This document shows positions 8,767 through 47,926 of a DNA stretch of 64,000 bases, piece after piece. The translations under genes and the position numbers were made by a program. Location: positions 3,596,001 to 3,660,000 of the forward strand of contig NC_013922.1 in NCBI RefSeq assembly GCF_000025625.1. The letters are read 5' to 3'. Source of the DNA: Natrialba magadii ATCC 43099 (GTDB lineage: Archaea; Halobacteriota; Halobacteria; Halobacteriales; Natrialbaceae). Below the pieces are notes generated by a model. That model had not been told where the DNA came from and did no database searches. It saw nothing but the letters and a program-made list of their open reading frames with translations. Each line of letters starts with the position of its first letter. Position 1 is the stretch's first letter.

Positions 8767-9690
8767 CTACCGGGTGTCGTCGCCGACGATGTCGTCATCG
8801 TCGTCGTCATCTAACAGCCCCTCGTCGTCGGTATCGTCGTCCATGAGGTCGCTGTCGTCGTCACCAATCAGGTCATCGTCGTCGTCATCGATGATGCCGT
8901 CGTCGTCCGATCGGCCGCGGCGGTCGTCATCGTCCATGAGGCCATCGTCGCCACGGTCATCGTCCATCAGACCGTCGTCGCCATGGTCGTCGCCGAGCAT
9001 ACTATCATCGTCTCGGTCGTCGTCTCCGATGAGGCTGTCATCATCACGGTCATCGTCCATGATGCCGCTGTCGTCTCCGCGACGGCTATCGTCGTCCATA
9101 ATGCCGTCGTCATCGTCACCGATGAGACTGTCGTCATCCCGGTCATCGTCTCCGATCAGTCCGTCATCGTCGTGGTCGTCGTCACCGATGAGGCTGTCAT
9201 CGTCGTGGTCGTCGTCACCGATGAGGCTGTCATCGTCGTGGTCATCATCGCCGATGAGGCTGTCGTCGTCTCGGTCGTCGTCCATCAACCCGCTATCGTC
9301 AGTCCGGTCGCCTCGACCGGTATCTGTGTCCGTCATTCCGCCCGACTCTGTCTCTCGTCCCGTACTGGTTCCAGCACCAGCACCAGCACCAGCACCAGCA
9401 CCAGCACCAGCACCGGCACCGGCACCAGTACTGGTCCCTGGACCAGTCCCCGACAAATCACTCTGGAGATGAATCGCGTCGTCAGTCATCTCCGCAACTG
9501 CCGTCTCCTGCAACGGATACGCATCGTCGGTCCCGCCCCAGCCGAGTTTCGCCTTAATTGTGTCCGCGATACCCGGATCCGGTTCGACGTGTGCCGTCCC
9601 GTGTTCGACGTCGGCGACGATACCGACCTCGTCACCCGCCGCGTTCACAACCGTCTTTCCGACGTCGTCGTCTGTAAATTGTGGAGACAT
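8767..9690 (-). CDS. PRC-barrel protein with long Asp-rich tandem repeat
   Basis: 307 residues from the ATG at 9690 (MSPQFTDDDVGKTVV), the usual start for haloarchaeal PRC-barrel proteins; 23 open codons upstream look unrelated. The N-terminal ~75 residues are the PRC barrel (VGKTVVNAAGDEVGIVADVE). A Gly-Ala repeat at about 85-110 is encoded by repeated ggtgct/gcaccg hexamers (9370-9440). The remaining ~170 residues are an 11-residue repeat of the type DDDHDDDSLIG, with variants carrying GLMDD, GIMDD or GLIGD. The tail is predicted to be disordered, extremely acidic and perhaps cation binding. PRC barrels often mediate protein interaction in RNA processing, cell division or photosynthesis. 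Confidence 0.82.
   Translation of the reverse strand: MSPQFTDDDVGKTVVNAAGDEVGIVADVEHGTAHVEPDPGIADTIKAKLGWGGTDDAYPLQETAVAEMTDDAIHLQSDLSGTGPGTSTGAGAGAGAGAGAGAGAGAGTSTGRETESGGMTDTDTGRGDRTDDSGLMDDDRDDDSLIGDDDHDDDSLIGDDDHDDDSLIGDDDHDDDGLIGDDDRDDDSLIGDDDDGIMDDDSRRGDDSGIMDDDRDDDSLIGDDDRDDDSMLGDDHGDDGLMDDDRGDDGLMDDDDRRGRSDDDGIIDDDDDDLIGDDDSDLMDDDTDDEGLLDDDDDDDIVGDDTR
8985..9290. repeat. 33-nt tandem repeat inside the PRC-barrel gene
   Basis: Units of 33 nt (11 codons), best conserved at 9174-9270 where the word caccgatgaggctgtcatcg recurs exactly every 33 nt, and more diverged on both sides. The identical core units imply recent unequal crossover or slippage. Confidence 0.85.
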
Positions 9691-15782: not shown

Positions 15783-17051
15783 TCACTCTGGTACCATCGA
15801 GAGTGGCTCTGCCGTGTCGGCGAGCGCGGCGATCTGGTCGCGTGCCCACTCACACGCGACGGGATCCTCGTTGACGAGCAATCCACGAGGTTCGGCGTCT
15901 GCATCACAGATGAGGACGATCGTCAACGGCGTTGGTATGGATTTTGAGTCAGTAGCTGTTGGTGTTCTGTCACCATCAGTGTCATTCTTACGGCCACTAC
16001 TACTGCCACTATCACAGCCACTGCCAGGACCACTACTACTGTCAGTATCGCAGCCACTGCCACGACCACAGCTACTGTCACTCTCAGTATCGACATCAGT
16101 ATTGGCCTCGGTATCAGAATCGACCAGAATGAGGCCATACGACGGCGTCTGTGGCGCTTCACGCAAGACGAGGCGGCCAGTCGAAAGCGCACTCGCGGTC
16201 CCCTCCCGGAACGTACAGAGCAACGTCTGGATCGCCGACGCGGGCGCAGTCACCTCGATCGATTGGGCATCACCAACCGCAGTGCAGTAGGCACTCGCCA
16301 GACAGTGCGTCGGTCCCGGTGCCACCACCTGGTGGCTCGTGCCCGTTTGTAACAGCGCCTCGAGTGTACGCTCGAGTACGTCCACTGTCTCTCCCGCCTG
16401 GCTTGGCATCGTCCCTGGTCCCTTCCCTGTCCCAGTTTCGCCCGTGACCTGGCTCTTTGACTCAGACTCAGACTCAGACTCAGACTCGGACTCGGACTTG
16501 GACCCAGACTCAGACCCAGACCCAGACCCAGACCCAGACCCAGACCCAGACCCAGACCCAGACCCAGACCCAGACCCAGACCCAGACCCAGATCCAGACT
16601 CAGACTCGGACCCGGACTCAGACTCGGACCCGGACTCAAACAACTCGAGTACCACCTCATCAGGAAGCCAGTCAACGAGCTGTGCTGGCTCGGTCGAGGT
16701 CGTGATTGGCGTCGCGCCATCGACGACGCGCCAGCTTAGATCTTCGGTTGGCGGGAGCGACGCGAGTAACTCGCTCGTCCGCGTTACCTGATCGAAACGG
16801 GCAGACAGTCGGGTGAACGATCCGAGCGCGAGGTCGCCAGCGACAGTCAACTGGTACTGACAGCACCCGTCGCTGGTCGTCTGGTCGACCAACGCGGCAT
16901 CCTGCAGCTCCGAGAGTCCCCTATCGACCGTCGACCGGGACACCTCGAGTTCGCTCGCGAGTTCGGACGGGCGAGCAGGGGCCGACGAGAGCCGCCGGAG
17001 CAGGGGTTCGCGACGACGAACGACGGCGAACAGCCCGTGGTCACTCACCAT
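15783..17051 (-). CDS. FilR1-type HTH regulator with two low-complexity insertions
   Basis: 422 residues from the ATG at 17051 (MVSDHGLFAVVRRRE), with cattatctc about 27 nt upstream. A winged helix (residues ~15-70, SELASELEVSRSTVDRGLSEL) is followed by the middle domain seen in haloarchaeal FilR1-type regulators. The second domain is interrupted twice: a Ser-Gly/Ser-Glu dipeptide repeat at about 138-197, encoded by 30 hexamers (16459-16638), and a Ser/Asp/Gly/Cys-rich stretch at about 312-360. Without these inserts the protein would be near the family's ~260-290 residues. DNA binding is expected; the ligand is unknown. Confidence 0.8.
   Translation of the reverse strand: MVSDHGLFAVVRRREPLLRRLSSAPARPSELASELEVSRSTVDRGLSELQDAALVDQTTSDGCCQYQLTVAGDLALGSFTRLSARFDQVTRTSELLASLPPTEDLSWRVVDGATPITTSTEPAQLVDWLPDEVVLELFESGSESESGSESESGSGSGSGSGSGSGSGSGSGSGSGSGSGSESGSKSESESESESESESKSQVTGETGTGKGPGTMPSQAGETVDVLERTLEALLQTGTSHQVVAPGPTHCLASAYCTAVGDAQSIEVTAPASAIQTLLCTFREGTASALSTGRLVLREAPQTPSYGLILVDSDTEANTDVDTESDSSCGRGSGCDTDSSSGPGSGCDSGSSSGRKNDTDGDRTPTATDSKSIPTPLTIVLICDADAEPRGLLVNEDPVACEWARDQIAALADTAEPLSMVPE
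16459..16638. repeat. Hexamer tandem repeat (30 units) in regulator gene
   Basis: Uninterrupted run of gactca, gactcg and gaccca hexamers encoding Ser-Glu and Ser-Gly dipeptides on the minus strand. Length is a multiple of three, so copy-number change preserves the frame. Confidence 0.95.
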
Positions 17052-39715: not shown

Positions 39716-39837
39716 CTGTCTCGTCCCGTCTCGTCCCGTCTCGTCCCGTCTCGTCCTGTCTCGTCCTGTCTCGTCCTGTCTCGTCCTGTCTCGTCCCGTC
39801 TCGTCCTGTCTCGTCCCGTCTCGCTCCGTCTCGTTTC
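39716..39837. repeat. Decamer tandem repeat, about 12 units
   Basis: tcgtcccgtc / tcgtcctgtc alternate with only C/T changes at two positions, between the S66 peptidase start (39628, minus) and the HAD phosphatase stop (39900). The period 10 is not a multiple of three, consistent with the non-coding location. Confidence 0.95.
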
Positions 39838-44273: not shown

Positions 44274-47200
44274 TTAGCGGGTGAGCGCCACCGCCGCGCC
44301 AACCAGCACGAGGCCGAGTACCGCGATCACCGCGCCGATCGTTCCTGCGCCGGCAACTGAGAGGGCGACGGTCGCACCCGCGACGATGCCGGCACCGCCA
44401 CCGCCGGCGAGCAACGGACCAAGAAGAGTGGCCGACGAGCGGCCCGTTTCTTCATCTTGCCCGCCAGTCTCAGTCGTTTCGTCAGCTGTTTTCAGCTCTT
44501 CAGTTACGTCGGCAACCTCGTCTACCTCACGCTGCAGTTCCGACCGCAGCGACTCCAACTCGTCCGCCGTCACCAGCGGCTCCAGTTCTTCCTGGGTCAC
44601 CCCACTCCCACCCTGCTCGCCCTCGAGTTCCGCAACCCGCTCCGCCAGCTGTTCGTGGTCGGGCTCGAGTACAGTCTGCTCAGACGCAACGGAAGTCACG
44701 CGCTCGTCGAGTTCGTCGAGGCGCTGGTCAAGGTTCGCAACTGCCTCGGACTCCGCGAGGTTGTCGATCCGCTCCGAAAGCGAGTCGACCTCCGCAGCCA
44801 GCGACGAGACAGTTTCGTCGTCCGGCACGTCTTCGGAGTCCGGCACATCTTCGAGGGCATCGGAGAGGGACTCGAGTTCGGTGTCGAGCCTGTCTACCTC
44901 GTCCGAGACGCTCGCTGTGTCGTCGGCGAGCGCCTCGATTTCTGCTGCCTGTTCGTTGATCGTCGCTGCCTGCTCGTCGATGGTTGCCGCCTGCTCGTCG
45001 ACGGTCGCCGTCTGCTCGTCGATCGTCGACTCCTGTGCAGTGAGGCGCGTCTCGAGTTCGGCCGTGGTGTCGTCGACTGCAGTGACATCGGATTCGACGC
45101 TTGTGAGCGTGTCCTCGAGTTCGTCTACGTCAGCACTCGTCGTCTCAGCAGTTTCCTCGACATCCGCAGTGTGGCTCTCGACGGCGGTAACGTCGGCAGC
45201 GACGGCATCCAGTCGGTCGCCAGCGTCACCGATCTGGTCGTCGAGCGCGTCGATGCTGGCACGCAGGTCGTCACTCTCGTTCTCGAGTGTCGCCTCGGTT
45301 TCGTCGAGTTGCTCCTCGAGCGACGTTTCTGTTTCAGCGAGCTGTTCTTCCAGTCCCGTTTCTGCCTCCTCGAGTTGTGTTTCGAGATCAGACTCTACAG
45401 AGCCGATCTGCGTTTCGAGCTCCGCTTCCGTTGACTGGAGCTGCGTTTCGAACTCCGATTCCGCCGACTCAATCCGCGAGCCGAGGTTCGACTCCGTTTC
45501 ATCGAGCCGGCTCTCGAGTGCATCGACGTCCTCGGCCTGCGTCGACACGGCTGCCTCCGTTTCGTCGAGTCGTGACGCGAGTGCCTCCTCGGTCGACTCG
45601 AGTGCATCCTCGATCGAGTTGACTGTCTCGGCGATCTCCGCAGCGTGTGCATCGAGATCAGCTTCCACGTCCGCGACGGCTGACTCGGCAGATCCGACGC
45701 GCTCGCTGACCGACTCGAGTTCGTCGTCGATCGTCTCGTCGACGGCATCGACGCGGGACTCGAGTGCGTCCACTTCGGCCGTCGTCGCGGACTCGTCTGC
45801 CAGGTCGGCGACGGTGTCCTCGAGATCCGCAAGTGTTTCCCGGTCGGTCTCGAGTTCGGCCACCGTCTCGTCGAGGTCGGATGCGAGGTCCTCGAGCGTC
45901 GTCCCGAGCTCCGACATCTCGTCGTCGACCTCGTCGAATCGGGCGGTCGTGTGTGTCGAGTGTTCCTCGAGTCGGCCTGCAAGTCCGTCGAGTCGAGTGG
46001 CTTGCGTCTCGAGTTGGGGTTCGAGTTCGTCGACTCGTGCGTCGGTCTCCGCAACAGTGGTCATCGCGTCCGCGCGGGCCGAAACCGTCTCCGAAAGGTC
46101 GGCAAGCCTGGCTTCGGCCTGCTCGAGTTCCTGTGCTACGCTCGCGAGGTCGTCCGTCCGAGCGGTCTCCTCGCGGACCGTGTCGAGGGCGGACTCGAGT
46201 GCGTCGAGGTCGTCGGCGAGCGCCTGAATTTCCTCGTCGCGGTTGGCGAGGCGGTCGAACAGGTGGTCGATGGCGTCGTTCGCACGGTCGTCCGTGGTTG
46301 GCTGTATCTGTGCGTCGAGGTCGGCGGCGATGGCTGCGGCACTGTCACCGCCATCGTTGCCACTCGGACTGCTGGCGTCGCCGGTCGCTGGCTTCGATGC
46401 CGTCGCCGAACCACCGTCGAGGTCGCCGTCGAACGAAAGCGTGTCCACGTCTTCGCTGCCCGTGCCTGACACAGTGGTTCCCCAGACGATCTCGTCGTAA
46501 GCATCGACATCGTCTTCGGAAGCAGCGAGCGCGCCTCTCGCGGCGCTCGCTTCCGGATCCGCTGCGAGTCGAACACCCCGAATCGAGATGGGGAGTCCCG
46601 CCGAATCGAATCGGCCGCCAAGGAGGTACTCGAGTCCCTCGACTGCGCCCGAACCAGCGACGGCGATCGGGACGGCGACGCCGCGCTGGAGGTCGGCGGC
46701 CGCGGCCTGGTCGCCGAGGGCGTCGGCCAGTTCGGCGACGAGGTCGTCGTACGCTGCAGCGAGGGCGCGTTCGATCGGTCCCGTTGCGGCATCGGGGTCG
46801 AGTTCGAAGTCTGCGAGAACGTTTCGGACCTGTGTGTGCTCGTGGCCGGTCTCGCCGGCCGCCTGGGCGACGATCCAGTCGGTGCCGCGGGTGATGGAAA
46901 ACGCAAGAACCGGGACGCCGTAGTAGGCGAGCGCAACGCTCGTGGTCTGTGCGCCGAGGCAGATTCCGACGCCGGTGTAGTTGTCGCCGGCGAACTGATC
47001 GTAAATGACGGCGAAGCCCTGGCTGACTGGTGTTGGGGATTGCGAGTCGCCATCGTCGGTTTTTCCGGCAGCCGTCAACTCGTCGAGCACCGAGGCAACC
47101 GTCTCGCGATGTGCGCCAGTCGGCGCGTCGGCGTCGACCACCGTCCCAGGCGTCGTGTAGGAGAGCGCCGTCGGCGAAACGTCGTCAGGGAGGACGAGGT

Positions 47201-47567
47201 CGACGAGCGCCGAAAACACTGCCTCGTCGTATTCTGCGGCGTCGAAGACGCCCTGCTGAAACGGCGTCTCGTGTTCGGAGACAGTCACGTCGTCACCGAC
47301 CTCCGCTGCGATGGTCGTCGCTTCTGGACCGACGAGCAGCATCTCATCGTCAGTCTCGACGAGCGCGACCGCATCGGTGTCGGCCGCAGTGATCGCGTCC
47401 TCGAGTGCATCGTTCGTTGCACTCGCTTCGTTCTCAGTGTCTGTCTCCGTCTCCCCTGCTGTCGACACCGAGACAACCCGCGTCGGTGTCGAACGAAGCG
47501 CGACCTCCCCCGAGCGGTCGCTCGCGAGCCGAATCGCATTCGCCCCAATATCGAGACCGTATGCCAT
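44274..47567 (-). CDS. Actin-fold protein with ~580-residue coiled coil and C-terminal membrane anchor
   Basis: 1097 residues from the ATG at 47567 (MAYGLDIGANAIRL). Residues 1-350 read as an actin/MreB/FtsA ATPase: phosphate-1 GLDIGANAIRLA (4-15), phosphate-2 VGICLGAQTTSVALAYYG (200-217), adenosine motif AVAGSGAVEGLEYLLGG (302-318), and the closing ADPEASAARGALAASED (336-352). In phosphate-2 the usual Asp before the Gly is missing (ICLGAQTT). After an acidic linker, ~430-1010 is an almost unbroken heptad coiled coil (ELETQIGSVESDLETQLEE; TIDEQAATINEQAAEIEAL), and ~1047-1097 holds two hydrophobic spans ending ALTR. It is probably a membrane-tethered filament or scaffold, related in fold to salactin/volactin but far larger. 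Confidence 0.88.
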   Translation of the reverse strand: MAYGLDIGANAIRLASDRSGEVALRSTPTRVVSVSTAGETETDTENEASATNDALEDAITAADTDAVALVETDDEMLLVGPEATTIAAEVGDDVTVSEHETPFQQGVFDAAEYDEAVFSALVDLVLPDDVSPTALSYTTPGTVVDADAPTGAHRETVASVLDELTAAGKTDDGDSQSPTPVSQGFAVIYDQFAGDNYTGVGICLGAQTTSVALAYYGVPVLAFSITRGTDWIVAQAAGETGHEHTQVRNVLADFELDPDAATGPIERALAAAYDDLVAELADALGDQAAAADLQRGVAVPIAVAGSGAVEGLEYLLGGRFDSAGLPISIRGVRLAADPEASAARGALAASEDDVDAYDEIVWGTTVSGTGSEDVDTLSFDGDLDGGSATASKPATGDASSPSGNDGGDSAAAIAADLDAQIQPTTDDRANDAIDHLFDRLANRDEEIQALADDLDALESALDTVREETARTDDLASVAQELEQAEARLADLSETVSARADAMTTVAETDARVDELEPQLETQATRLDGLAGRLEEHSTHTTARFDEVDDEMSELGTTLEDLASDLDETVAELETDRETLADLEDTVADLADESATTAEVDALESRVDAVDETIDDELESVSERVGSAESAVADVEADLDAHAAEIAETVNSIEDALESTEEALASRLDETEAAVSTQAEDVDALESRLDETESNLGSRIESAESEFETQLQSTEAELETQIGSVESDLETQLEEAETGLEEQLAETETSLEEQLDETEATLENESDDLRASIDALDDQIGDAGDRLDAVAADVTAVESHTADVEETAETTSADVDELEDTLTSVESDVTAVDDTTAELETRLTAQESTIDEQTATVDEQAATIDEQAATINEQAAEIEALADDTASVSDEVDRLDTELESLSDALEDVPDSEDVPDDETVSSLAAEVDSLSERIDNLAESEAVANLDQRLDELDERVTSVASEQTVLEPDHEQLAERVAELEGEQGGSGVTQEELEPLVTADELESLRSELQREVDEVADVTEELKTADETTETGGQDEETGRSSATLLGPLLAGGGGAGIVAGATVALSVAGAGTIGAVIAVLGLVLVGAAVALTR

Positions 47568-47594
47568 GCCGAGGAGAACCGAGAGCCACCCCTT

Positions 47595-47615
47595 GGTACT
47601 TCGCCCGTGAGTACC
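47595..47615. promoter_or_regulatory. Inverted repeat upstream of the actin-like gene
   Basis: ggtact-(9 nt)-agtacc at 47595-47615 is nested inside a wider ccacccc/ggggtgg pair (47586-47592 and 47632-47638). It lies 28-71 nt before the start codon, so it could be an operator or a hairpin in the mRNA leader. The likely minus-strand TATA (gtaattttcac, near 47620-47630) falls between the arms. Confidence 0.45.
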
Positions 47616-47651
47616 AGATGTGAAAATTACCGGGGTGGAGGCTGTGCTGCT

Positions 47652-47915
47652 GTGCCGGTGTGCCGCTGTGACGGTGTACCGGTGTGCCGATGCACCAATG
47701 TGCCGCTGTGACGGTGTACCGGTGTGCCGATGCACCAATGTGCCGCTGTGTCGGTGTACCGGTGTGCCGATGCACCAATGTGCCGCTGTGTCGGTGTGAC
47801 GGTGTGCCGGTGTGCCGCTGTGTCGGTGTACCGGTGTGACGGTGTGCCGGTGTGACGGTGTGCCGGTGTGCCGCTGTACCGGTGTGCCGATGCACCAATG
47901 TGCCGATGTGCCGGT
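47652..47915. repeat. Octamer satellite, 33 units with 40-nt higher-order repeat
   Basis: 33 consecutive octamers of the type gtgccggt, gtgccgct, gtgacggt, gtaccggt, gtgccgat and gcaccaat. Five of them form a 40-nt higher-order unit that repeats at 47660, 47700 and 47740. The array fills the space between the MOSC gene stop (47927) and the actin-like promoter. It is open in several frames and was rejected as coding. Confidence 0.95.
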
Positions 47916-47926
47916 GATCTCCCTGC

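Follow-up and report, generated by a model that had tools for sequence, protein, structure and literature searches.

Among the proteins described from haloarchaea, the nearest to the one reported here is volactin (VolA, HVO_2015; Pfam family PF25216), an actin-type protein of ~340 amino acids with neither a coiled coil nor a membrane span. For Haloferax, no actin homologue other than volactin is described as having been identified (PMC7617734); there the protein is dynamic in vivo, its filaments meet the membrane at their tips, and a part for volactin-binding factors has been suggested (Schiller and colleagues, PMC10869688). Salactin, also a haloarchaeal actin-fold protein, belongs to a separate Pfam family (PF25229) and forms pole-associated filaments in cells; neither a coiled coil nor a membrane span has been described in it (PMC10746226). 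Crenactin is an archaeal actin that works with the coiled-coil, SMC-like protein arcadin-4 (cited in PMC10869688).

The gene considered here lies in a window of 64,000 nucleotides (positions 3,596,001 to 3,660,000 of contig NC_013922.1) from the genome of Natrialba magadii ATCC 43099, which comprises 4,443,643 bases in four contigs and whose close relatives by sequence are Natrialba hulunbeirensis, N. chahannaoensis and Natrialba sp. SSL1. It specifies a long paralogue of volactin (hereafter the long form; 1097 residues and a stop codon), and the same genome carries a canonical volactin of 341 residues that is 35% identical to it. The head of the long form matches volactin over its full length, but the long form adds a 700-residue extension, and a head-stalk-hairpin architecture for the protein is near certain (Table 1). 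Crenactin and arcadin-4 are two separate proteins, whereas the long form has head and coil in one. FtsA is a membrane-bound, actin-fold link of a polymer to the membrane, its partner polymer being a tubulin homologue; it has a short amphipathic tail where the long form has a 600-residue stalk and a hairpin.

Table 1. Features of the long volactin gene and its upstream region (window positions; residues are those of the 1097-residue protein)
Feature	Position	Strand	Basis or remark
Long volactin paralogue, 1097 aa	44274..47567	-	ORF, Pfam, homologue layout, dN/dS
Actin-fold head (Volactin PF25216), residues 1-355	46503..47567	-	Pfam, AlphaFold2, Foldseek
Phosphate-1 loop, residues 4-15 (GLDIGANAIRLA)	47523..47558	-	Motif alignment
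Phosphate-2 region, residues 199-213 (GVGICLGAQTTSVAL)	46929..46973	-	Degenerate across long forms
Adenosine motif region, residues 299-318 (VPIAVAGSGAVEGLEYLLGG)	46614..46673	-	Canonical VTGGTSSPSG not kept
Flexible linker, acidic, Gly/Ser/Asp-rich, residues 356-424	46296..46502	-	Least constrained
Coiled-coil stalk, residues 425-1033	44469..46295	-	Heptad analysis and full-length model
Gly-rich hydrophobic hairpin (putative membrane anchor), residues 1050-1097	44277..44420	-	Hydropathy, conservation
Conserved element TTTTCANNTYTGGTAYT...CAAANNNCCAAGAGG	47590..47626	-	Starts 59 bp before ATG
Minisatellite, 40-bp unit, 16/8-bp sub-units	47641..47916	.	Between MOSC stop and promoter element

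The reading frame found mechanically at the locus has 1257 residues and extends upstream through the minisatellite; we chose the ATG at 47567 as the start because it matches the starts in relatives. The GC content at the three codon positions (0.75/0.46/0.74) and the dN/dS ratios of 0.14-0.34 (head, 0.14-0.17; coil, 0.24-0.34; hairpin, 0.16) indicate a selected protein and no chance ORF. The linker has a dN/dS of about 0.5 and canonical volactin one of about 0.05. In the 13 genomes that have both forms, the median identity is 47% for the long-form head versus 95% for canonical volactin; despite this fast divergence, head, coil and hairpin of the long form are under purifying selection.

Residues 1-348 match the Pfam profile Volactin PF25216 with an E-value of 6e-93 and a score of 312 bits against a cut-off of 35, in support of the kinship with haloarchaeal actins such as volactin that an earlier note on this DNA had claimed. 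An AlphaFold2 model of residues 1-370, built from 32 sequences, reached a pLDDT of 86.2 and a pTM of 0.86. Its best Foldseek match in the PDB is MreB (E 8.3e-11, probability 1.00); MamK also matches (E 7.5e-10, TMq 0.61), eukaryotic actin, FtsA and PilM are ranked lower, and EutJ is among the structural matches. MreB and MamK, the nearest solved folds, are only 12-15% identical to the head and have no coiled-coil stalk or C-terminal hairpin. Because a family-profile sequence search of solved structures returned nothing meaningful, the fold of the head rests on prediction and Foldseek, from which we are confident that it is of the actin/MreB type. The same note had proposed an actin/MreB/FtsA-type fold and a structure prediction for the N-terminal region; that prediction gave an actin-type fold and not one outside the ASKHA class. 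Elsewhere in the genome, a match to MreB_Mbl in a frame of 660 residues was taken as a DnaK-like protein, and a Pfam profile search found no match to salactin PF25229 anywhere. Salactin is absent from every Natrialbaceae genome searched, including those without the long form.

The stalk was expected to be a nearly continuous coiled coil of ~580 residues, and its heptad periodicity bears this out: the mean heptad contrast over residues 425-1033 is 3.62 (1.81 +/- 0.13 in shuffled sequences), the global top period is 3.50, and the strongest period falls within 3.4-3.67 in 27 of 41 sub-windows, where the shuffles gave a mean of 3.2 and a maximum of 9 such sub-windows. Helices are placed at 427-592, 596-804 and 811-906 and, with breaks, at 917-1030 by a full-length AlphaFold2 model of low confidence (pLDDT 48, 4 sequences), which we used for helix extent only. 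There are internal repeats of ~11 residues around 700-760 and of 7 residues around 845-875. The coil also resembles models of SMC, Rad50, arcadin-4 and apolipoprotein, but in composition only and with scores below the family cut-offs; the sole models above a cut-off, DUF1664 (47.1 versus 34.6 bits) and LA_3659 (38.4 versus 36 bits), are themselves coiled-coil families. The two C-terminal spans that had likewise been claimed appear as two hydropathy peaks in the last 48 residues, at about 1051-1071 (weak, KD 1.57) and 1072-1097 (KD 2.79), and are conserved in the family; a GGGxAGvvaG motif of the hairpin is present in 32 of 41 long forms.

What had been presented as one unusual protein turns out to belong to a widespread paralogue family, found in 88 of 125 Natrialbaceae genomes and lacking in 37. 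Its hosts include members of Natrialba, Natronorubrum, Natrinema, Haloterrigena, Halopiger, Halovivax, Natronococcus, Natribaculum, Halobiforma and Halorubellus, and since most relatives in the family carry the same gene, we regard the long form as a real kind of cytoskeletal protein. All 40 homologous family loci that were fetched have the head-stalk-hairpin layout, with total lengths of 575-1263 residues. The stalk varies between genomes from 205 to 892 residues, as one would expect of a spacer and not of a catalytic region. Canonical volactin is also present in each of the 88 long-form genomes of the family. Beyond the Natrialbaceae, six genomes from three other families of the order encode long forms of 775-878 residues with the same layout, again together with canonical volactin in all six; an order-wide search with these distant long forms (382 genomes) added neither further members nor further families, and every genome in which the family and order searches detected a long form also has a canonical ~340-residue volactin. 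These distant genes share no synteny with the long-form genes of the Natrialbaceae, and the heads of four out of four tested match Volactin.

In an unrooted tree with long branches, the canonical volactins, the family long forms and the distant long forms each occupy one side of a branch, and the long forms are separated from the canonical volactins with support values of 100 (long) and 99 (canonical). The tree is compatible with a single origin of the C-terminal extension. The long volactin does not fall inside the canonical clade, that of the orthologues of HVO_2015, which is represented in this genome by a separate gene. Among open-licence papers on volactin, salactin and archaeal actins with coiled coils, the architecture is not described. 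The earlier impression of novelty stands to that extent, for no published protein of such architecture was found; Pfam already recognises the head domain, and it is the architecture and the paralogue family that are apparently undescribed.

The nucleotide pocket was examined by comparing motif columns between 41 canonical volactins and 41 long forms. The phosphate-1 Asp (D6) is kept in 40 of the 41 long forms. In the phosphate-2 (P2) motif of canonical volactin, SFGAGMTN, the glycines are invariant in all 41 copies, whereas the long forms retain the first Gly in 21 cases and the second in 2. The adenosine motif VTGGTSSP, invariant in the 41 canonical copies, is represented in the long forms by a shorter VAGxGAV. 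Fold glycines are kept in the long forms, unlike those of P2 and the adenosine motif. The absence of an Asp from P2 had been read as a possible sign of slow or lost hydrolysis, but by itself it is not informative: the position is Ser in 41 of 41 canonical volactins, and the volactin of Haloferax is dynamic in vivo (PMC10869688). Better evidence for an altered site comes from the eroded P2 glycines and adenosine GGT, which are confined to the long form, and to judge by these motifs its nucleotide site is probably weakened or altered. Canonical volactin is, by comparison, almost invariant, with both sets of glycines intact.

Upstream of the gene, TTTTCANNTYTGGTAYT followed by CAAANNNCCAAGAGG starts 58-59 bp before the ATG in 35 of 41 long-form genes; of the six genes without it, five branch off first in the long-form tree. 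A genome-wide scan of 12 genomes from 10 genera located a single copy of the pattern in each of the 12, just before the long-form gene; the reversed pattern, used as a control for this uniqueness, has zero occurrences. The element looks like a gene-specific cis-element. A coding function was rejected, since several species have indels or stop codons in frame there, and Rfam gave only sub-threshold chance matches for the region upstream of the long-form gene. An inverted repeat within the element (TGGTACT-N9-AGTACCA) is restricted to the genus itself. The neighbouring minisatellite, with sub-units TGTGCCGGTGTGCCGG, is not conserved and is nearly absent in sister species. Further tandem arrays in the window lie at 8926-9310 (33-bp unit), 16459-16635 (the hexamer GACCCA, 29.5 copies) and 39718-39834 (10-bp unit, 11.7 copies). 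The neighbours of long-form loci represent housekeeping synteny (PEPCK, MOSC, MFS, HAD and ribosomal genes), among which a neighbourhood analysis found no functional partner. MOSC adjoins the gene in about half of the loci.

A role for the long volactin as scaffold or tether is plausible. As an explanation of the whole, we favour a membrane-anchored tether derived from a diverged volactin paralogue, to which we would assign a probability of roughly 0.4. The C-terminal helical hairpin would be inserted in the cytoplasmic membrane so that both of its ends face the cell interior, and the coiled coil of roughly 570-600 residues, probably dimeric, would measure about 85 nm if straight. Together with the flexible linker, this stalk would hold the actin-fold head out in the cytoplasm. 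With its weakened nucleotide pocket, and a predicted loss of ATPase activity, the head might act as a volactin subunit that is inactive or of low dynamics and would bind canonical volactin filaments at the end or the side and fix, nucleate or cap them at the membrane. We offer more tentatively the possibility that a pseudo-actin derived from a filament subunit, anchored in the membrane and provided with its own promoter element, holds or caps volactin filaments tens of nanometres off the membrane.

The tether is favoured by the volactin-family head, by the constant layout and by the constant presence of canonical volactin in genomes with the long form. It is also favoured by the erosion of the P2 and adenosine motifs where the phosphate-1 Asp is kept, by purifying selection on head, coil and hairpin, by the variable stalk length and by the tip contacts of volactin in Haloferax. 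Against it stand the 37 of 125 family genomes that do without the long form and the lack of a functional hint from neighbouring genes; moreover, fast divergence of the head is not obviously expected for the partner of a nearly invariant filament. The long form cannot be a general anchor, because the volactin of Haloferax is tip-anchored with volactin as the only identified homologue. It is nonetheless a concrete candidate in Natrialbaceae for attaching archaeal actin filaments to the membrane and, if it has this role, a filament-forming actin would have yielded a catalytically weakened accessory, similar in kind to the eukaryotic actin-related proteins.

The same fast divergence (47% versus 95%) would suit a self-contained partner that is free of the conserved filament. 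The heads might then polymerise among themselves with little nucleotide turnover, the coils forming a brush or bundle and the whole an autonomous, static scaffold at the membrane. The fold is close to those of MreB and MamK, both of them membrane- or scaffold-associated filaments, and there is one long-form copy per genome. We consider this rather unlikely, since the eroded P2 and adenosine motifs speak against ordinary actin-type assembly and a stalk of 85 nm would be strange in a filament that lies close against the membrane.

Coiled coil makes up over half of the protein, and PilM, EutJ and FtsA occur among its structural matches. It could accordingly be imagined as an anchored, intermediate-filament-like protein in which the head is only regulatory or an adaptor (cf. 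PilM, EutJ) and has no connection with actin filaments; the weak compositional matches to SMC, Rad50 and arcadin-4, far below cut-offs, point in the same direction. We think this unlikely, because the head is specifically of the volactin family, is not closer to PilM or EutJ, and occurs in none of the searched genomes that lack volactin.

Another explanation is that the Natrialbaceae lost the pole-anchored salactin and that the long volactin took over its role. Of 382 genomes of the order, 153 carry PF25229, none of them from the Natrialbaceae, and it is absent from all five long-form genomes of the families numbered f7 and f10; however, genome G002, of family f3, carries both salactin and the long form, and the Natrialbaceae without the long form lack salactin as well. 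As few as two or three losses could account for the pattern, and salactin is dynamic and is not described as having a membrane span. A substitution of this kind seems quite improbable. It is scarcely credible that the gene is an artefact or in decay, formed when an actin remnant was joined by chance to low-complexity sequence, for in spite of its low-complexity acidic repeats, fast divergence and upstream minisatellite, this is refuted by conservation: the same layout in >80 genomes, purifying selection in every domain and a gene-specific promoter element.

Two observations concern the canonical gene itself. Volactin is regarded as essential in Haloferax. At positions 2001-11950 of contig C54 in genome G333 (locus L202), an insertion of ~9 kb interrupts the canonical volactin gene. 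Within the insertion lies a gene that, from inspection by eye, looks like a tyrosine recombinase, and because both junctions of the insertion carry GATGAAACTCATC, volactin may itself be the attachment site. A second locus, L203 in genome G162, has two full canonical volactin copies and a third that is broken near residue 112.
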